A stretch of 64,000 bases of DNA from NCBI GenBank assembly GCA_902802265.1, contig CADCLN010000006.1, positions 16,401 to 80,400 on the forward strand, in the 5' to 3' direction. Below the pieces are notes generated by a model. That model did not search any database. It saw only the letters and a program-made list of their open reading frames with translations, and was not told the origin of the DNA. The translations under genes were made by a program, and so were the position numbers. Shown one piece after another: positions 4,110 through 63,925 of this stretch (its first letter is position 1; every line of letters begins with the position of its first letter). The DNA comes from an uncultured Bacteroidales bacterium. GTDB lineage: Bacteria > Bacteroidota > Bacteroidia > Bacteroidales > Bacteroidaceae.

Positions 4110-4320
4110 TTAAATAAATAATGTGTAATAAAAGTTTGTAAAATCTCGGCTTCTTCCACCGAGCACCCGACGCTTGTCGCAGTGTTTTGTGCCCACAGTG
4201 CGTTGCATCTGCTCTCTGCGGGTTTTGTAATCGGTGATTCTCGGACCGCCATTCCGGCTAATAGAATGTGCTATCCACACACAGATTTAGACTCATAAAC
4301 ATGAGCCCTCGATAATAATC
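4110..4320 (-). ncRNA. Candidate structured 5' leader of the rplM operon
   Basis: The region between the -7 box and the rplM ATG carries no ORF but several local hairpins: CTCGG/CCGAG (4145-4163), CGAC/GTCG (4168-4179) and a CTCAT/ATGAG pair near its 5' end. The length and pairing suggest a ribosomal-protein leader that could be bound by L13 or S9 for autoregulation. I judge structure by eye only; covariation across relatives is needed. Confidence 0.45.
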
Positions 4321-15595: not shown

Positions 15596-16717
15596 TTACT
15601 CGGCGATACAGATAGTAACGCGGTTGAGAGGCTGGTCTGTGTAAGGCTGCTCAGTGTCACCCTTAGCAGAAACAGTCATACGGCTTGGAGAAATGCCGAA
15701 CTGATTCTGGAGAGCGTTAGCAACAGCTTCAGCACGCTTCTGAGAATAACCCATGTTGATGCGTGGGTTACCAGTACCACGGTCAGCGTAACCAGTGATG
15801 CTTACGCGAGATTCTGGATACTTCTTCATGTAGTCAGCAACTTCAACAACCTTAGCCATTTCCTGTGCGGAAATCTGAGAACCACGGATGAGGAAGTAGA
15901 TGTCACGACGAAGTGGCTCACGCTTTGGCTGCTCAACAACTGGAGCAGGTTGCTGAACAAATACTGTATCGGGCTTTGGCTGCTCAACAACTGGCTTGCA
16001 GCATGGCTCAAGCACCTTTGTAGTGTGAGTAGCACCGAAGTTGTAGCGCAGACCAACGAGACCGTTGAAATACCAGTCAGCGTTGCCAGCCTTCTTGCTG
16101 TTGTAGCGGTCAGAAGTTGGGTTAGCGTTCAGTTCAAAGTTTACAGAGAAAGCATCGTTGATGCGAACATCTGCCAAAAGACCGAACTGAGCTACGAAAC
16201 GGCTCTTAGTGCCAGACCAAAGATATTCCATATATTCTGGGCAGTCAGGAAGAACAGTTGAATTCAGTTCACCCCAAACATTCCAAGCCTGATCGTTCTT
16301 CCAAGCAATATTGATACCTGCACCTACGAAAGCGTAGATGTTGATAGGACGATTGTACTTGTAACCACAGAAAAGATTAGAGAGGTTTGCAGTAACATCA
16401 AGAGTTGGAGCAATGTAGTTCCAAGCCCACTTGTACTCTTTGTTGAAGATCTCAGAACCGCCCTTAGACTTCCAAGCGTTTACATCCAGACGAATACCAA
16501 CAACAGGGTTGAATTCATAACCGAATGCAATCTGAGCATTGGGCGAAACCAGTGAGCCAAAGCCCACTTCACCGAGTGTGTGCTGCATACCAAACTGACC
16601 CTGCACGTACCAGTGTGGCTTGAACACTTCCACTGTCTTTGCCTCCTGCTGCTGAGCAGAGGCAGATACACTTGCTAATGCAACAAGTGCACCGAGAAAG
16701 ATGTTTTTAATATTCAT
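15596..16717 (-). CDS. OmpA-family outer-membrane protein
   Basis: 373 residues. Signal peptide to about residue 21, an N-terminal beta-barrel (to about 225, strands such as WYVQGQFGMQHTL and FNGLVGLRYNFGA), a Pro/Val/Gln linker (PKPDTVFVQQPAPVVEQPK) and a C-terminal OmpA domain (about 270-373). The peptidoglycan-binding pattern GYADRGTGN...SQKRAEAVANAL keeps the Asp and Arg that bind diaminopimelate. It would tether the outer membrane to the wall. 40 bp downstream of the small lipoprotein gene, so perhaps co-transcribed with the surface lipoproteins. Confidence 0.92.
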   Translation of the reverse strand: MNIKNIFLGALVALASVSASAQQQEAKTVEVFKPHWYVQGQFGMQHTLGEVGFGSLVSPNAQIAFGYEFNPVVGIRLDVNAWKSKGGSEIFNKEYKWAWNYIAPTLDVTANLSNLFCGYKYNRPINIYAFVGAGINIAWKNDQAWNVWGELNSTVLPDCPEYMEYLWSGTKSRFVAQFGLLADVRINDAFSVNFELNANPTSDRYNSKKAGNADWYFNGLVGLRYNFGATHTTKVLEPCCKPVVEQPKPDTVFVQQPAPVVEQPKREPLRRDIYFLIRGSQISAQEMAKVVEVADYMKKYPESRVSITGYADRGTGNPRINMGYSQKRAEAVANALQNQFGISPSRMTVSAKGDTEQPYTDQPLNRVTICIAE

Positions 16718-17417: not shown

Positions 17418-20400
17418 TTATTTCTTAGCAACGTAGTACTTGCGAGTAGCAATCTGACCGTTGTAGTCAAGAGCAGAGTAAGCAACTTCATAGATGTAAC
17501 CATCTGCAAGGTTGAGGGTAGCATTCTGGTGGATACCGCCAGCGATAACAACGTTCATGTTAGCACCCTGGTTAGCTCTCTGGAGAGCGGCCTTGCAAGC
17601 TGCGTCGCCATCCTGAGCAGAAGCGCTGCCCTTGAAGACGTTAGTTACAGCGATGTGCTTCTTGTAGCATGGAGTGATAACTTCAGCAGTGTAAGTAGTT
17701 GGGTAGATTGTGATTGTAGAAGCATCTACAAACTTAACCTTACCAAGAGTACCACCGAGCTGAGAAATCTTGTTGCCTTCTACGAAGAGTGCGATTGGCT
17801 GAACACGGGCGCTGATGTTGCGGATGAAGTTCACAAGCTTACCGTTAATCTTGTCGAGGAAGTTCTGGATTGTGTTGTCAATCTTGTTTTCAATGCGTGT
17901 CTCGTAATATTCGATGTTACCGAGATAATCATTAACATAGCCAACAAGCTTAGCAATATCGTCAACAAGAACCTTTGTATTGTTCAAGTCGTAGTTAACC
18001 TGACCAAGGATGTCTTCAACCTGAGATTGGAATGAAAGTACGAAATACTTCTGACTGCCGTCATCTACAAATCTATAGTAAGTAGGATCTGCAGCAACTG
18101 AGCGGCCATTGATTGTGACTGTCTTACCATCAGGACTAATTGTAACATCATCTGTCAGTTTCATGTAAACTGTGATATTGAACTTACCTGCGAATGAACC
18201 GTCTGCATCGATTGGCTTAATGTCAATCTTAGCAATATCATTTGCAACCTTATTCTGCAAGAAGTCAACAATCTTGTTGTCCTTGATGCGAGGATTAATA
18301 GTGTTGGTGATATAATTATCAACGCGACGATTAATCTTGTAGATGAGGTTCATTACACGGTAGTAGCCGTCCACATACTTTTCGTCATCAGTGAGGAGTG
18401 TCTTTTCAAACTTGTTCCAGAAGTCAGGAGAGAAGCCTGGAGCCTTCACAGCTGTAGCAGCAATGCCGTAGTTAGAGTAAACGCTGCGAGTGTCGCCGTC
18501 AGCATTCTTATAGTCAGCCTTAACAGCAAGAGCTGGGAGGATACCGTTGAACTGGTTGTAGAGAGTACCAACGAGAGTAGCGATTGATGGGAATGTACCA
18601 CTTGCATCCTTAGCCTTAGTAGCACTTACAACTGTTTCGAATGTGTTTCTGAATGCTTGAGCAATCTTCTTGCTGTCAATCTTAACCTTAACCTTGTCAA
18701 TGTCAGCCTTGCTGAGGTGAGCATCAGCTGCATAGAAGCCGTTTGCAACGGAACGAGTGTAACCGAAGGTAACGAGCTTAGAAGATGGGAGGAGGTTCTT
18801 CAGTTCTATACCAGAAGCCTCTTCCTGGCTGTTCATGAGCTTAATAGGAGTCTTGCTGAAGTCAACACCTGCAGGGTTGATAGTCAAATAAACCTTACCA
18901 GCATTGTCAGAAGCGTCGCTGATGAGTGTACCAGCTCTGCCATTGATCTGACCGTCAACGCTACCAATCATAGCGAGGTCGGCGTCTGTCAGCTTAGCAA
19001 ACCTAGTTACAGATGGGTCAGCATAGTACATCAGTTCAGAAGATGGGAACTCGTATGGAGTATCAGCCTTACCGTAGAAGGCAACGAGTACGTTAGAGTT
19101 AACACCTGCTGGGATGTTGAATGTACCGTACATTGGGTTGTAAGTGCCCTGAACGATAACACCTGTAATCTGGTTGTCGATAGCAGTCTTGATGTTAGTA
19201 ACAGTAGTTGTCAGACCTTCGATAGCTGTCTTGTTCTTTTCAATATTACCCTTGTTTGTTGCAACATCTTTCTTTACTGCTTCAACGTCTTTCTTAACCT
19301 TGTCAATAGCTTTGTCCAAAGCTGTCTTGTAAGTCTCAACCTTTGTGTCAAGCTTACCGATTTTAGTATCAAGAGTAGAAACCTGAGTTTCGAGGGTAGA
19401 AATCTTACCTTCAGCAGTAGTCATCTTGCCTTCGAGAGTAGAAACCTTACCTTCAACGGTTTTCATCTTGCCTTCGAGAGTAGAAACCTTACCTTCAACG
19501 GTTTTCATCTTGCCTTCGAGAGAAATGATCTTGCCTTCCTGAAGGGCAACCGTACCAGCGAGTGTAGCAACTTCACCTGTAAGTAAAGTTACAGCACCTT
19601 CGAGTTTACCAACCTTACCATCAAGAGAAAGAACTTTACCGTCAAGTATTCCGAGATGACCTTCAATTCCCAAAAGCTGACCAGTAATTGTCAGAATCTG
19701 ACCTTCAATTCCAGCAATTTCACCTTGCATAACAGTTACAGCGCCAGTAAGACCTGCAATAACAAGATCCTGAAGAGCATCAGCAGCCTTGTAAGCAATA
19801 GTCAGGTCTTTCACAGCCTGAGCAAGTTCTTCCTTAGTAGCATAATTCTTCTTGAGATCTTCAACTTCTGACTTGAGGTCAGCAATAGCAGTAATCAATG
19901 TAGAGAGGTCAACAGGTGTACCTGGTACAAGACCGTCAACAACGCCTTCGAGGAGACCCAGTTTGTAGAGTACCCAATGGAGAGTCTTGTCAAGAGTCTC
20001 GATTTTATCAGCATTTGAATTAGCCAAAGTCAGAGCAGCAGTAGCATCCTTCTGAACGTCAGAAATCTGACTTCCGAGCTGACCAGCGATAGTAGCAAGG
20101 TCATCCTTCACTTTACCAATCTGACCAACGAGATCCTTGTAATCATCAACCATCTTTTGATTGAGTTCGTCCTTAGTCTTACCGATCTGCTCCATAACAT
20201 CTTCATACTTAGAGAGAGCCTTCTGTGCTTCCTGATAAGCAAGATCAGCCTTATCCTGAGCAGCCTGAACAGCCTTGTTAACCGTACTGAGTTCGGCAGC
20301 GAGAACAGCTGTAGTTACATACTGAGAGAGGTCGAGACCTTCGATAGCGGTCTGCAGCTTAGCAATGTCAATCTTGTTCTGCTCTACGTCAGACTTGAGG

Positions 20401-24752: not shown

Positions 24753-24868
24753 CTCCCCCTCTCTACATACAACAGCAGGACCAATATTTTTTGTTTTCCC
24801 TGGTAATTTTTTGAAGCAAAGTTACACTTTGTGGTTAATCAGTTTGTAATCATCGTGTTATGTCGGAA

Positions 24869-24912
24869 AAAGTTACATGAAAGTTACATGAAAGTTGCAC
24901 TAAAGTTACATC
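24869..24912 (+). repeat. Four 11-bp direct repeats, AAAGTTACATG type
   Basis: Four contiguous units: AAAGTTACATG twice, AAAGTTGCACT, AAAGTTACATC. A lone fifth copy (AAAGTTACACT) is at 24818-24828. The same four-unit array occurs at 63718-63761 on the same strand. It lies in the 366-bp gap (24753-25118) between two convergent genes; the rest of this gap is AT-rich sequence plus the 22-bp array below. Confidence 0.85.
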
Positions 24913-24960
24913 GATTCCGTCTTTTTATGGCGCAAATTTGTCAACATTTGTACGTCAGTG

Positions 24961-25092
24961 GCACTGCATTGCTGCTGCGGTACGAAAGTTCTCCCGCTGC
25001 GGTGGCAATGCAGTGCCAGACGAGTAGCAAAGTTCTCCCACGGCAGCGAGAGAACTTTGCTACTGAGATGAGAGAACTTTGCTTTTCAGATG
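24961..25092. repeat. 22-bp-period repeat array, locus 1 (six units)
   Basis: Six units in perfect 22-bp phase starting at 24961, 24983, 25005, 25027, 25049 and 25071. Positions 1-12 of the units are, in order, GCACTGCATTGC, CGAAAGTTCTCC, GCAATGCAGTGC, GCAAAGTTCTCC, AGAGAACTTTGC, AGAGAACTTTGC; units 1/3 and 4/5 are near inverses. Positions 13-22 resemble YRCTGCGGTG. The arrangement yields long hairpins, e.g. AGTAGCAAAGTTCTC with its complement (25024-25065). Non-coding, between convergent genes. Confidence 0.85.
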
Positions 25093-42861: not shown

Positions 42862-43428
42862 ATGGTAAAGAAATGGGTATGCCCAGTATGCGGCTATGTT
42901 TATGAGGGTGAAAATCCTCCAGAAAGATGTCCTCAATGCAAAGTTCCTGGCTCAAAGTTCAAGCTGAAGGAAGAAACTGACGGACTGCAGTTTGCCTGTG
43001 AACACGAACTCGGTGTAGCCAAGGCTATTCCAGAGGGCGAAGAAGGTGCATTCGTCCTGCAAGGACTGAAAGACCACTTCACGGGTGAATGTACCGAAGT
43101 AGGTATGTATCTGGCCATGGCACGCCAAGCCGACCGCGAAGGTTATCCTGAAGTGTCCGAAGCCTTCCGTCGTTATGCTTACGAAGAGGCTGACCATGCT
43201 TCACGCTTTGCAGAACTGCTCGGCGAAATGGTTTGGGACACCAAGACAAACCTCAAGGCCCGCATGGAGGCTGAAGAAGGCGCTTGTGCTGCAAAACTCG
43301 AAATTGCGAAGGTAGCCAAGAAGCTCAACCTCGACGCCATCCACGACACCGTACACGAAATGGCTAAGGACGAGGCTCGCCACGGCGCAGGCTTCCAGGG
43401 ACTCTACAACAGATTCTTTAAAAAATAA
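42862..43428 (+). CDS. Reverse rubrerythrin (peroxidase)
   Basis: 188 residues. The rubredoxin-like domain is N-terminal ([12 protein letters not shown], then RCPQC; Cys 7, 10, 23, 26) and the ferritin-like diiron domain C-terminal (about 50-188), the reverse of classic rubrerythrin. Diiron ligands are seen in [35 protein letters not shown] and [12 protein letters not shown]. Such proteins reduce H2O2 using NADH- or rubredoxin-derived electrons in anaerobes. A rubredoxin gene follows 15 bp downstream. Confidence 0.93.
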
Positions 43429-43443
43429 AAACGCGCAAAAACT

Positions 43444-43605
43444 ATGCAGAAATACGTATGTGATGTATGCGGCTGGGAATACGACCCCGCAGTAGGTGTG
43501 CCAGAAGCAGGAATTGCACCAGGCACAGCCTTCGAAGATCTTCCAGACGATTTTGAATGCCCACTTTGCTCAGTAGGCAAAGACCAATTCTCTCCAGCAG
43601 AATAA
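43444..43605 (+). CDS. Rubredoxin
   Basis: 53 residues: [18 protein letters not shown] begins the classic fold, and the four iron ligands are C6, C9, C39 and C42 (CxxC...CPLC), with [15 protein letters not shown] at the end. A one-electron carrier, very likely the electron donor to the adjacent reverse rubrerythrin. The gene is short and easily missed by length filters. Confidence 0.95.
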
Positions 43606-43675
43606 CCAAATCTTTCCTTTCATGGTGTATGCCCCTTTGATTGCATCTCTCTGGGTTACTGCCATAAGAAATTTT

Positions 43676-43730
43676 TATCAAACAAGCTTTTTGCCTGCAT
43701 TTTCAGCGAAGGCGAAAGGCTTGTTTGATA
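43676..43730. repeat. Large imperfect palindrome / hairpin
   Basis: Outer arms TATCAAACAAGC and GCTTGTTTGATA are perfect; the pairing extends through TTTTTGCCT and AGGCGAAAG with two G-U pairs, giving about 21 bp around a 13-nt loop. No T-run follows on the plus strand, so a simple terminator is not certain. It lies in the 528-bp gap after rubredoxin (43606-44133), which also holds the 22-bp array; 43740-43945 shows nothing I recognise. Confidence 0.7.
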
Positions 43731-43946
43731 GTATATCCATACTACCCATTTAGGGCTTCGGGCACGTGTTTTGAGGCCTCTTAAAGGGAGGGAAATTGGG
43801 GATTTCAGCACTTGTTCGGATTTGTGATTCTTCGGAGTTTGCGGATAAGGAATTGTAATTCTTGCAATTCCCACATTTCTCTTCTCGATACTGAGAGCAA
43901 ACTGTCCTAAGAAATTCTCCCCTATAGGCTGACTCATGTTCCTGCA

Positions 43947-44144
43947 GCAAAGTTCTTCCATGCTGGCGGCAAAACTTTGCTGCTGAAGTGACAGAACTTT
44001 GCTGCTGAAGTGGCAGAACTTTGCTGCTGGAGTGGCAGAACTTTGCTGCTGAAGTAGCAGAACTTTGCTGCTGAAGTAGCAGAACTTTGCTGCTGGAGTA
44101 GCAGAACTTTGCTGCTGAAATGGCAGAACTTTGCTACCTTCCGC
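43947..44144. repeat. 22-bp-period repeat array, locus 2 (nine units)
   Basis: Units start every 22 bp at 43947, 43969, 43991, 44013, 44035, 44057, 44079, 44101 and 44123. The first is the inverted core type (GCAAAGTTCTTC); the rest carry AAAACTTTGC or GCAGAACTTTGC. Units 3-8 differ at only a few positions, so this array is recently homogenised. The last unit contains the TAG stop of the AddB-like gene (44134-44136), so the array starts inside its 3' end. Confidence 0.92.
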
Positions 44145-47058
44145 AGACATTTTTGAAGTCGCAATATTTACAGTTTTCCTGACAATTTGTTTGGAAGAAA
44201 GAGGTCTGCGGACTGAAGATTTCCTGGATGACGGCCAGCAGCTGTTCATGGTAGTCGGCTTTCAGTTGCTCCCGAAAATCCAGAATCAGATCCTTGCCCA
44301 GCTGTACGGCTTTCGCCCGCTTTGAGGGTGGTTGTTTCACGTACATCAGCTGTGAAAACACGGGCTGTGTCTCGGTTTCCGTCACCACATCGCAATAATA
44401 GAGCGCTTGCAGCAGGTGGTGGAAACGGTTTTTCTGTTCGGGGTTGAATAGCGACTCCAAGTTGGATGCAGTCTGCGGACGGCTGCTGGTTTTGTAGTCC
44501 ACAATACGGATGCAGCCTTCAGGCGTGCGTTCATAACGGTCAATCACACCACCGATGCGTACAGGAATCGGTCCCGACTCCGTAGGAACCGTAAACTCGG
44601 CATATCGGGGGGCTTCCACGCCCAAAAGCGTAAAGGGACACGTCTGCGCATCGAACCTCAGCTGCATCTTTATATAGGTAATAAGGACGTGCTTGTTCAG
44701 AAGCTGGTGGCCGTTGTAAGGCGGTTGCAGGGGGGTACGGCCATGCGGTTCTGCGGTCTTAAACACATTTACGACAAAGGCTTCATCGACCAGCTGGGAA
44801 AGTTTTTGTTCGTCCTGCGCCATGTTGAGCAGGTAGCTGCTTTGCACTTGACGTTGGAGGCAAGGCTGGTAGATGTGCTCCATGCAGTAGTGGAGCAAGG
44901 TGCCGAACATGGCATCATCCACGTCGTCGGTCAGTTCTTCTTCGGCTTTCAAGCCCACCACATATTTCAGGAAGAACCGGCGGCGGCAGTCCAAATAGTC
45001 GTTGATGGCCGAGGGACTGATTGTCATTATGGCCCCGCGGCGCTTGTCACTATATTCTTTGTCGTAGGTGGTACTGAAGCGGTGGAGAAGTTTGTCGAGA
45101 ATGACCGCGTTGCTCTGGACATCCAGCGATGGTTCCATATTGACATCCACGTCGGAGACCAGGGTCCTGAGCTGAATCTGTACAGTGGGCGGGAATAGTG
45201 TTTTGGATTCTATCTGCAGCTGCATCAGGAACCGCGACATTTCGCCCTGGTTGAGCCCATCGGTATAGTTGTTGTACATCAGGGTGATGTTTTTGGCTCG
45301 GCTAAGCAGACGGTAGAAGTAGTAGGCATAGAGACTGGTTTGCTTCTCGATTGTGGTCATGCCGTGAAGGGTGCGCAGGTTGTAGGGGATAAAGGTGTTG
45401 TTCATCGACACACGAGGCATTTGCCCCTCGTTGACGGACAGCATGATAAGGTTGTCGAAATCGAGGTTGCGAGTTTCAAGCAGTCCCATCACCTGCAGAC
45501 CGACGGCTGGTTCGCCGTGGAAGGGAACCGTCTTGTTGCGCAGCAGCTGGCGCAACAGTCGGCTATAGGTGTCTTTATTGACCTGGAAGGAAGGTAAAGT
45601 TTCCTGCAGGATGCCCAAGCGGCTGATCAGGGTGTAGACCGTGTAGAGGGATTCGGCAAAGAGCGGAGAGTCCGTCTGAAGGGTACGCAGCCGATCAACG
45701 ACCTCCATGAAGTAATGTGTCAGTTCTTGTGGCGTGGCGCAGGACTGAAAGAGAACGAAAAGTGCTGCGTTATCCTTGAAAAGTTCCTCGGACGGAAACA
45801 GGATGGACCGCCGGTTGAGGGTAGCCAGCAAAGTGGCAGCCGCGCCGCCAGACAGCCAAGCCGTGTAGGGATGCCGCAGGACTGCTGCCACCTGGGCATA
45901 TCGCCACTTGCCGTTCTGGGTGCGTCCGTGGGTTTGCAAATCGAGCAAAGTGCAGAGGAAGCTGTAGAGGGGCGTGTCGGTCAGGGGAAAGCCCATGGTG
46001 ACGTTGAGCTGTACGTGTGTTCCGTCGAGGGTGGAGGGTATGGCGTGCAGCACAGAATTGAGAATCTTCTCGTTGCAAAGCACAATGGCGGTACGGTTGT
46101 CGAGGGAGATGTCTTTCTGCTGCAACCATTGGGAAAGGTAGCGGCTCTGGGCATCTTCCGTGGGCGAAGAGATGATGGTGATTTGCTTCTCCGCGTCGGT
46201 TAAGAAATGGTCGTACACCTCGTTACGCCCCTCAAAACGGTTGGGGAACAGCTGCAGATTGGAACGGATAAAGGCCCCTGCTTCGTGGCTGAGGTAGGCA
46301 CGGTCGTAGTCCCAGTAGAAAAGGGTGTCGCGTTCTGCTTTCAGGAATTTGAACAGTCGCTTTTCCGTTTCACTCAGCACGTTGAATCCCACGACGATAT
46401 AGTGTTTCGACGGAAGCAAACGGGCTGTCGCTTCGGGCTGCAAGGCAATAGATTCGATGACCCGACGCTTCTGCATTCCTCGGTAAGCCTTCTGGGCCGA
46501 GAGCAGAGTTTCCTGAAAAGTTTGATAAATGGGGTAAAGATGTTGCCAGACGGACTGGAACTTCTCCTTCAAAAGGGTTTTTCGCTCTGGGTCGAAATGG
46601 CAGAAGAACTGGCGAACAGCTTCTTTCTGTTCGTCGGTCATATAGTCGAAGTTGGTCAGGTTGTCAAGGTCTTCGATGTTGGCAAACAGCATCTTGGCAT
46701 CAGCAAGATTGTTGTCAATATCGTCGAAATCGCCGAGCAGCAGTTCGCCCCAACTGTAGAAGCGGTCAAGCGATTCCTCGGTACCCGTCAGCTGCTGATA
46801 GACTTGATGCAACTGGCAGACCAAATAGATGGGATCAGCCACAGCAAGTTCGCTTAACTGTTCGAAGATGTCGCTAATCGTCACATATTGCGGCGTCCAG
46901 AAAGGCTTGTCACCCCCCAGCCTCTTCAATTCCTGATTCAAGAACAAGCTGGCTCGCTTATTCGGAAACACCACAGTCAGGTCGGAATAATCGCCCCGAA
47001 ACAGTTCTCTGATATCCTCTGCCACCAGCCTGAGAAAACCTTTTCGCTCCATAGTCAT
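44134..47058 (-). CDS. AddB-like PD-(D/E)XK nuclease/helicase subunit
   Basis: 974 residues. The N-terminus has LTVVFPNKRASLFLNQEL, the helicase-like segment of AddB, though without a usable Walker A. The C-terminal nuclease domain (from about 685) includes FTVPTESGPIPVRIGGVIDRYERTPEG... with IRIVDYKTSSRP (catalytic Asp, Lys). Four cysteines, C691, C963, C966 and C972 (CKYCDFKNVC), form the iron-sulfur staple of AddB/Cas4-like nucleases. It acts in double-strand-break resection, presumably with a RecB/AddA-like partner not in this window. The stop lies inside a 22-bp repeat unit. Confidence 0.9.
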   Translation of the reverse strand: MTMERKGFLRLVAEDIRELFRGDYSDLTVVFPNKRASLFLNQELKRLGGDKPFWTPQYVTISDIFEQLSELAVADPIYLVCQLHQVYQQLTGTEESLDRFYSWGELLLGDFDDIDNNLADAKMLFANIEDLDNLTNFDYMTDEQKEAVRQFFCHFDPERKTLLKEKFQSVWQHLYPIYQTFQETLLSAQKAYRGMQKRRVIESIALQPEATARLLPSKHYIVVGFNVLSETEKRLFKFLKAERDTLFYWDYDRAYLSHEAGAFIRSNLQLFPNRFEGRNEVYDHFLTDAEKQITIISSPTEDAQSRYLSQWLQQKDISLDNRTAIVLCNEKILNSVLHAIPSTLDGTHVQLNVTMGFPLTDTPLYSFLCTLLDLQTHGRTQNGKWRYAQVAAVLRHPYTAWLSGGAAATLLATLNRRSILFPSEELFKDNAALFVLFQSCATPQELTHYFMEVVDRLRTLQTDSPLFAESLYTVYTLISRLGILQETLPSFQVNKDTYSRLLRQLLRNKTVPFHGEPAVGLQVMGLLETRNLDFDNLIMLSVNEGQMPRVSMNNTFIPYNLRTLHGMTTIEKQTSLYAYYFYRLLSRAKNITLMYNNYTDGLNQGEMSRFLMQLQIESKTLFPPTVQIQLRTLVSDVDVNMEPSLDVQSNAVILDKLLHRFSTTYDKEYSDKRRGAIMTISPSAINDYLDCRRRFFLKYVVGLKAEEELTDDVDDAMFGTLLHYCMEHIYQPCLQRQVQSSYLLNMAQDEQKLSQLVDEAFVVNVFKTAEPHGRTPLQPPYNGHQLLNKHVLITYIKMQLRFDAQTCPFTLLGVEAPRYAEFTVPTESGPIPVRIGGVIDRYERTPEGCIRIVDYKTSSRPQTASNLESLFNPEQKNRFHHLLQALYYCDVVTETETQPVFSQLMYVKQPPSKRAKAVQLGKDLILDFREQLKADYHEQLLAVIQEIFSPQTSFFQTNCQENCKYCDFKNVCGR

Positions 47059-63473: not shown

Positions 63474-63605
63474 GCAAAGTTCTCCCACTGTCGTAGTAAA
63501 ACTTTGCTACTGCGGTGGGAGAACTATGCTACTGCGGTGGCAATGCAGTGCCACCGAGGCGAGAGAACTGTGCCGCTGCCGTGGCACTGCAGTGCCAACA
63601 AACCA
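63474..63605. repeat. 22-bp-period repeat array, locus 3 (six units)
   Basis: Units start at 63474, 63496, 63518, 63540, 63562 and 63584. Cores (positions 1-12) are GCAAAGTTCTCC, GTAAAACTTTGC, GGAGAACTATGC, GCAATGCAGTGC, AGAGAACTGTGC and GCACTGCAGTGC; the flanks are mostly TACTGCGGTG-like. As at locus 1, six units and both core families are present. It lies in the gap beyond the GH25 5' end, with no gene in 63392-64000. Confidence 0.85.
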
Positions 63606-63717: not shown

Positions 63718-63761
63718 AAAGTTACATCAAAGTTGCATCAAAGCTACATCAAAGTTACACC
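63718..63761 (+). repeat. Four 11-bp direct repeats, AAAGTTACATC type
   Basis: AAAGTTACATC, AAAGTTGCATC, AAAGCTACATC and AAAGTTACACC in a row; one more copy, AAAGTTGCACT, is at 63666-63676. Same unit and copy number as at 24869-24912. Confidence 0.85.
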
Positions 63762-63925
63762 AAACAAGGTTCATTTCATCAATTTTTGTCCAAAGTTTAT
63801 ATTTTTAACACCACAGGCTCCCCACCTTGATGGCAGCTTGTATCAAAATTCCAATACCTACGGGTCATACCGTATAGATTTTTCCCCACGCTACTCTTGA
63901 TTTTCTTTAACCCAACTTTGACGCT

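Follow-up and report, generated by a model that had tools for sequence, protein, structure and literature searches.

Rigidly phased palindromic arrays with a 22-bp unit in intergenic spacers of a Bacteroidales genome

BIMEs have roles in gyrase binding and transcription, and it has been proposed that they insulate converging transcription or absorb supercoils. REPs, REPINs, and BIMEs (GTAG superfamily) are high-copy, extragenic, palindromic, and GTRG-tagged elements whose orientations alternate and whose unit number varies (PMC3733652; PMC2817692), and the spacers of REP dimers are mostly 20 to 100 bp and variable (PMC3733652). BrickBuilt, a minisatellite MITE of Porphyromonas gingivalis, consists of direct tandem repeats with a leader and a tail bearing IS-like terminal repeats (PMC4596501). 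The literature searched, mostly outside the subscription journals, contained no description of a 22-bp array with a lattice of mirror axes such as the one reported here. An earlier note on the 64-kb stretch of DNA under study (the window) had known of no REP, MITE or CRISPR family with such a layout, and this stands as far as Rfam is concerned: at gathering score, the sole match in the whole window was an L13-Bacteroidia ribosomal protein leader (RF03127) at 4236-4307, with none at the arrays.

The focal array (43947..44134, no strand assigned) is made up of nine 12-nt cores that start at 43947 and follow one another at exact 22-bp steps, and TRF reported a period of 22, 7.6 copies, and 0% indels for 43968-44135; the nine units without a phase slip that had been described there are thus real, and the equation of 22 bp with two helical turns is true only roughly. 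We name the core states F (AGAGAACTTTGC), R (the inverse of F), p (GCAATGCAGTGC), q (GCACTGCATTGC), and s and t (two palindromes). The focal array reads R FFFFFFFF, one R-type core (GCAAAGTTCTTC) followed by eight of F type, and being nearly uniform it displays hardly any of the switching of cores once ascribed to it. Its best mirror axis coincides with the exact array centre, with 77 of 93 positions paired (G-T allowed). The last 10-nt "flank" that had been assigned to it (44135-44144) proved to be coding sequence of the gene to its right, a 974-aa ORF (44134..47058, minus strand) that we take, from reading its protein, to be AddB-like; the 3' end of this ORF abuts the array, with its stop codon TAG (44134..44136, minus strand) at the array edge. 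Relatives of this ORF are present in 43 of 45 genomes of the genus, and by reading, the protein ends GR-stop here versus GKQ-stop in the sister species G039. The convergent left neighbour (42862..43428, plus strand) is a putative rubrerythrin-like ORF, and a homologous stretch lies on the same side in G039. The orthologous spacer of G039 contains no array of the kind described here (family 1), and the counterpart of the locus in the relative G014 contains no 22-bp array.

The two six-unit arrays reported elsewhere in the window were both found, one at 24961..25082 (cores qRpRFF) and the other at 63474..63595 (cores RFFpFs), neither with an assigned strand. To the left of the former lies a flank (24807..24960, unstranded) that is common to a set of arrays, the M1 group. 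Head-to-tail 11-bp repeats of the AAAGTTACATN type, half the array period in length, adjoin both arrays, at 24869-24911 within this common M1 flank and, as AAAGTTACATC, at 63718..63764 (unstranded). The motif AGAACTTTGCTRCT with at most 2 mismatches has 17 matches in the window versus 0.92 expected. By itself, the palindromic core GCACTGCAGTGC shows no excess over chance across the window (5 matches versus 3.82 expected) and stands out only through its phase inside arrays. A 42-bp tandem repeat of 3.2 copies at 19372-19522 of the window has a length that suggests coding sequence.

The family extends well beyond these three loci. In the whole genome (G000; 2.88 Mb in 63 contigs, 85.65% complete), GAGAACTTTGCTRCTG with at most 3 mismatches has 330 single-motif matches, versus 26 for the pattern read backwards. 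Arrays, called wherever at least three good cores stood in 22-bp phase, were inventoried in the window and 68 further stretches, 54 of them picked at or beside listed matches and 14 picked blind, which together amount to 1.13 Mb (7.6 kb shared by stretch L043 and the window being counted twice). This DNA contains 63 arrays with 450 unit positions, and the reversed sequence contains none. Units per array number 4 (one array), 5 (2), 6 (10), 7 (32, the mode), 8 (12), 9 (5), or 11 (1). Of the 63 arrays, 2 come from the 254 kb that were picked blind; the overall array density is not an unbiased one because most stretches were picked at motif matches, and since arrays were called by phase, broken arrays may be under-counted, though out-of-phase units were sought. 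In six contigs of the genome (C8, C9, C14, C39, C40, and C48) an array lies no more than about 300 bp from the contig end, and the arrays may therefore break assembly.

That a few core states occupy a strict 22-bp layout, for which no Rfam family gives a match, is borne out by these units. The column profile over all of them reads G C A n (A/T)(G/A) (C/T)(T/A) n T G C in the core and Y R C t G C a G T R in the flank. This profile is self-complementary around two axes, the core centre and the flank centre, that lie 11 bp apart. The self-complementarity about the flank centre means that flanks flip too. The consensus of the 62 flanks between two F cores is TaCtGaAGTG and that of the 62 between two R cores is CaCTgCaGTa, and TACTGAAGTG, found in 3 F-F flanks, is the exact reverse complement of CACTTCAGTA, found in 4 R-R flanks. 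The fixed flank orientation proposed in the earlier note therefore fails as a rule, F-F and R-R flanks being inverted relative to each other, although the CGCTGCGGTG-like form seen there does prevail in the R-p, q-R, and R-q contexts. GTRG directly precedes 255 of the 450 cores, and either GTRG or CYAC is found at 351. A free search for the best hairpin axis placed it at the centre of either a core or a flank in all 63 arrays. The states are also ordered, by a statistic that is independent of the strand read: R is ahead of F in 325 unit pairs and behind it in 9 (mean of 167.5 and maximum of 210 in 2000 order shuffles), and q is ahead of p 44 times versus 6. Given this order, whole arrays are imperfect inverted repeats. 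Within arrays, position 4 of R and position 9 of F are complementary more often than expected (0.617 versus 0.404, sd 0.048; 0 of 1000 permutations), with no such excess when position 11 of R is set against position 2 of F (0.572 versus 0.597), and identity at F position 9 is 0.75 within arrays versus 0.43 pooled.

No shared leader or tail was found around the arrays; there are several unrelated flanks, and by eye many arrays have TTTCAGTG-like letters ahead of the first core and CACTGAAA-like letters past the last. For family 1, the longest inverted repeats in the flanks (4.84 versus 4.82 shuffled) and the longest word common to both flanks (mean 4.70 versus 4.72 shuffled, sd 0.14), the latter measured from inexact array ends as a sign of direct repeats or target-site duplication, do not exceed chance.

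The phase is kept while the letters change. A search for out-of-phase units up to 130 bp from arrays returned one clear slip, at L203:3347, where a perfect F core is displaced by 2; the other 19 matches have one or two mismatches and favour no phase, and 3 of 269 perfect cores are isolated from arrays. As an internal control, we compared three groups of arrays with homologous flanks (55, 15, and 34 pairs, 60-bp flanks). The ratios of indels to substitutions are 106 to 468, 15 to 91, and 56 to 322 in the flanks, and, with multiples of 22 excluded, 16 to 911, 4 to 270, and 18 to 864 in the arrays of the same groups. Non-22 indels per substitution are thus about 0.02 in arrays versus about 0.2 in homologous flanks, a roughly ten-fold difference in which the pairs are non-independent and the length of some gaps depends on how the sequences were aligned. 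Paralogous array pairs differ by 12-20% substitutions and almost never slip. Replacement can be restricted to the core: in the M1 group, p is present in L053:628 and L213:13495 where the other 11 rows have R, the identical left flank cagacgagta being found in 5 of these 11, and L067 and L075 have q versus p in nearly identical flanks. The flip in place once proposed for p and q is a matter of two mirrored substitutions: GCAATGCAGTGC and GCACTGCATTGC differ at two mirrored positions and nowhere else, so that their supposed inversion needs two substitutions. Between R and F, about six positions are different.

The genomic setting was assessed with home-made, codon-scored ORF calls on the array-enriched stretches. 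No array midpoint lies inside a called gene (0 of 63); a rougher gene call, which the codon-scored calls replaced, had given 17 convergent settings and one array (L088:15956) inside an ORF. Among the 55 arrays with both neighbours on the stretch, 26 are between convergent, 21 between tandem, and 8 between divergent genes, 8 more arrays being at stretch edges. The convergent setting is thereby enriched relative to array-free gaps of at least 150 bp (24 of 177; p 7.7e-7), and an array lies within 60 bp on 30 of the 78 sides that face 3' ends versus 5 of the 40 that face 5' ends. Short tandem modules of the GCTTAGGCACAG, GGTTCCAGGTC, and GACAGGTCTGT types adjoin arrays, in some cases beside a GCTCCCCACCCTG block (L060, L072, L074, and L210; L057, L077, L088, L206, and L207).

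Other letters occupy the same phase. A lattice scan, which ignores sequence and scores mirror axes at fixed spacings (periods 7-26), gave 70 peaks at 11 bp, 36 at 22 bp, and at most 12 at any other period in this genome, with an additive score whose threshold was set after the results of two stricter and insensitive versions had been seen (the first found 2 arrays at period 11; the second found 11 at 11 and 2 at 22). Called arrays overlap 61 of the 70 period-11 peaks; of the other 9, four belong to a second family and the rest have no clear unit. The same scan gave 11 peaks at 11 bp in 345 kb of G039, at least one of which (L220:18847) is non-array sequence also present at window position 16652, and 0 in three array-less relatives. 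Family 2 has GTAAANNTTTAC cores and CANNNNAGTG-like flanks on the same 22-bp phase, with 104 matches in this genome, 52 on each strand; a draw of 398 further genomes from the same taxonomic family, which did not include G039, gave none. Family 3 (CGTAGGCAATGC gtcgcgctcg, with forward units first and reverse units after) is found at 79 places in G039, at one in this genome, and at none in the other 43 genomes of the genus. Its copies in the fetched G039 DNA, called without any phase requirement, all span 22n+8 bp (16 of 16; 30, 52, or 74 bp), and the same loose call in this genome gave 6 clusters, of which only the one place counted above is in phase. The single in-phase, family-3-like element of this genome, with different flanks, lies at L046:9230-9290, about 730 bp from a family-1 array. 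In G039, the small sample of family-3 settings (2 convergent, 4 tandem, 2 divergent, and 8 at stretch edges) has no convergent bias. At L232:479 of G039, palindromes of the CAACGCCGTTG type are spaced 21-22 bp apart with TTTNTAAAAA between them, possibly a further related layout.

In G039, the orthologues of the two spacers with the arrays at 24961 and 43947, both convergent, contain family 3 in place of family 1. Over 57 mapped gaps, in which the overlap of L043 with the window makes one own locus count twice, family 3 is present in 2 of 2 own-array spacers versus 0 of 31 other spacers of at least 150 bp. A loosely mapped third own-array spacer (L081) corresponds in G039 to a gap of 94 bp that contains neither of the two families. 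No array is present in this genome at two loosely mapped family-3 spacers of G039 (L278 and L290) or at three mapped G039 spacers with family 1, among which L220 is mapped cleanly. That families 1 and 3 replace each other at orthologous spacers is at most suggested by two loci, with other mapped spacers against it. A bolder reading, which we regard as possible but doubtful, is that the 22-bp grid rather than the letters is conserved and that the arrays represent a new class of phased mirror-lattice elements with a putative reader that counts 22 bp (11 bp between axes), so that letters might be swapped. This would be consistent with the use of families 1 and 2 in this genome and of families 1 and 3 in the sister species, and with family 3 in both cleanly mapped spacers. 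If the layout is selected, spacing and symmetry, and not sequence, would be what defines these intergenic elements of bacteria, and G039 would offer a natural sequence swap for finding the reading protein or the copying process.

Family 1 itself has a narrow distribution. It was found in 2 of the 45 genus genomes, G000 and G039, and a second probe likewise matched 2 of 81 genomes (our own and 80 relatives). The exact F-F probe matched 6 stretches in a collection of 84,980 species, from which our own records may be missing: 4 from assembly JAFTEV01, one other tandem, and one match without an array. JAFTEV01 is taken to be G039 because the arrays in its stretches L143 and L144 are the ones also present in L089 and L091. 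Two stretches were rejected as family 1: L139 (a Prevotella MAG) is a separate 22-bp tandem without mirror states, and L141 (a Clostridia MAG) yielded no array in the array scan. The viral contigs searched gave no match. The 642 kb of DNA fetched from G039 contain 13 family-1 arrays, and the 151, 100, and 100 kb from G014, G007, and G027 contain none.

We favour, tentatively and with a probability of roughly 0.4, the reading of the arrays as REP/BIME-like extragenic elements that are specific to this lineage, act as DNA, perhaps as phased binding sites or substrates, and have a putative protein reader and mobiliser. The register and the symmetry are what is actually kept, and for this reason we prefer a DNA-level reading. 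On an imperfect inverted repeat of 4 to 11 units with a mirror axis every 11 bp, a putative dimeric DNA-binding protein, a nucleoid protein, gyrase, or a REP-type nuclease might sit on successive axes in register; loss of register would break such binding, which would explain the near-absence of non-22 indels. Being placed in spacers, often near gene 3' ends or between convergent genes, the arrays could act as insulators for converging transcription or take up its supercoils, which is what has been proposed for BIMEs. New core states, and changes that match one another, may arise through hairpin-templated copying together with duplication or loss of units, a model suggested by the core-only replacements, the complementary pairs within arrays, and the length changes of 22 bp.

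The same placement could also suit RNA hairpins at mRNA 3' ends, acting between convergent genes as bidirectional terminators, insulators, or exonuclease blocks. This we consider unlikely, even though the convergent enrichment and 3'-end proximity agree with it and the 63 arrays fold strongly on both strands (mean z of -6.91 and -6.56; 94% and 95% below -2). The focal array folds modestly (z of -2.76 as DNA on the plus strand and -2.07 as RNA on the minus strand) and has no terminator-like site, the one such site in 43400-44400 being at 44313 (1.0 expected). The convergent setting fits a terminator role, which the earlier note suggested, or an insulator role, but the focal array gives no sign of a terminator, and 8 of the 55 arrays lie, by rough gene calls, between divergent genes. 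Among 45 R-flank-F segments (42 distinct), R and F pair in 86.9% of cells, not above the 86.0% of shuffles, and the covariation score, which was equalled by 8 of 500 shuffles, comes mainly from one pair, at which 17 of 42 segments have two-sided changes; in 28 of 42 segments, positions 11 and 24 do not pair. In 47 arrays read on the sense strand, as set by the gene end closest to each, G-U pairs number 199 and are outnumbered by the 264 A-C pairs. This bias runs in the wrong direction for strand-specific selection of an RNA hairpin, which is not supported although folding is strong on both strands. Unit order was also discarded as a folding design, since shuffling it hardly changes folding (z of -0.34 and -0.18, se 0.16 each).

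The arrays might instead be selfish or neutral satellite-like repeats, duplicated or copied by hairpin repair and tolerated in 3' spacers, where neither promoters nor genes are hit, with the phase as a mere trace of copying. The patchy presence in the genus, the absence of the focal array from the orthologous spacer of G039 and from the G014 locus, and the homogeneity within arrays at F position 9 would all be expected of such repeats. However, paralogous arrays have diverged by substitution with almost no slips, and different letter families share one phase; we consider this explanation about as unlikely as RNA hairpins. That they are REPs proper, mobilised by a RAYT (Y1_Tnp) of this genome, appears highly improbable. 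The PF01797 search of G000 returned one strong RAYT-like gene (G000:C23:37777-38118; L175, ORF near 1487-1965) and a weaker match at G000:C31:1795. Candidate GTRG tags at array units and a family-1 array about 330 bp past the stop codon of the strong gene speak for such a link, but this gene is directly bracketed by palindromes of the GGTAGCCAGCCAT type, unlike the array motif. A palindrome of this type also lies beside the RAYT of G024 (L176), a genome without any array-probe match, and in G039, which has arrays and whose genome is 84% complete, the search for PF01797 returned nothing. The arrays were accordingly not filed as REPs, and we do not claim REP membership because the strong RAYT-like gene has its own, different palindrome.

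With REPs, REPINs, and BIMEs the arrays share extragenic high copy number, palindromes, both orientations, a variable number of units, and perhaps the GTRG tags. They differ in the rigid 22-bp phase throughout, in the mirror axes every 11 bp, in swappable core states, in having several letter families per layout, and in that no cognate RAYT was found. BrickBuilt resembles them as a dispersed tandem unit of the Bacteroidales (23 nt versus 22 bp), and the arrays differ from it in their 22-bp unit, inverted halves, unrelated flanks, and lack of a common leader or tail. They resemble CRISPR in having regular short repeats, but their units are of 12+10 nt, both orientations occur, there are dozens of dispersed copies, and the place of unique spacers is taken by flanks that form a degenerate common palindrome. 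As noncoding DNA that tolerates substitutions and hardly any indels, the arrays make the copying and keeping of dispersed bacterial palindromes testable.
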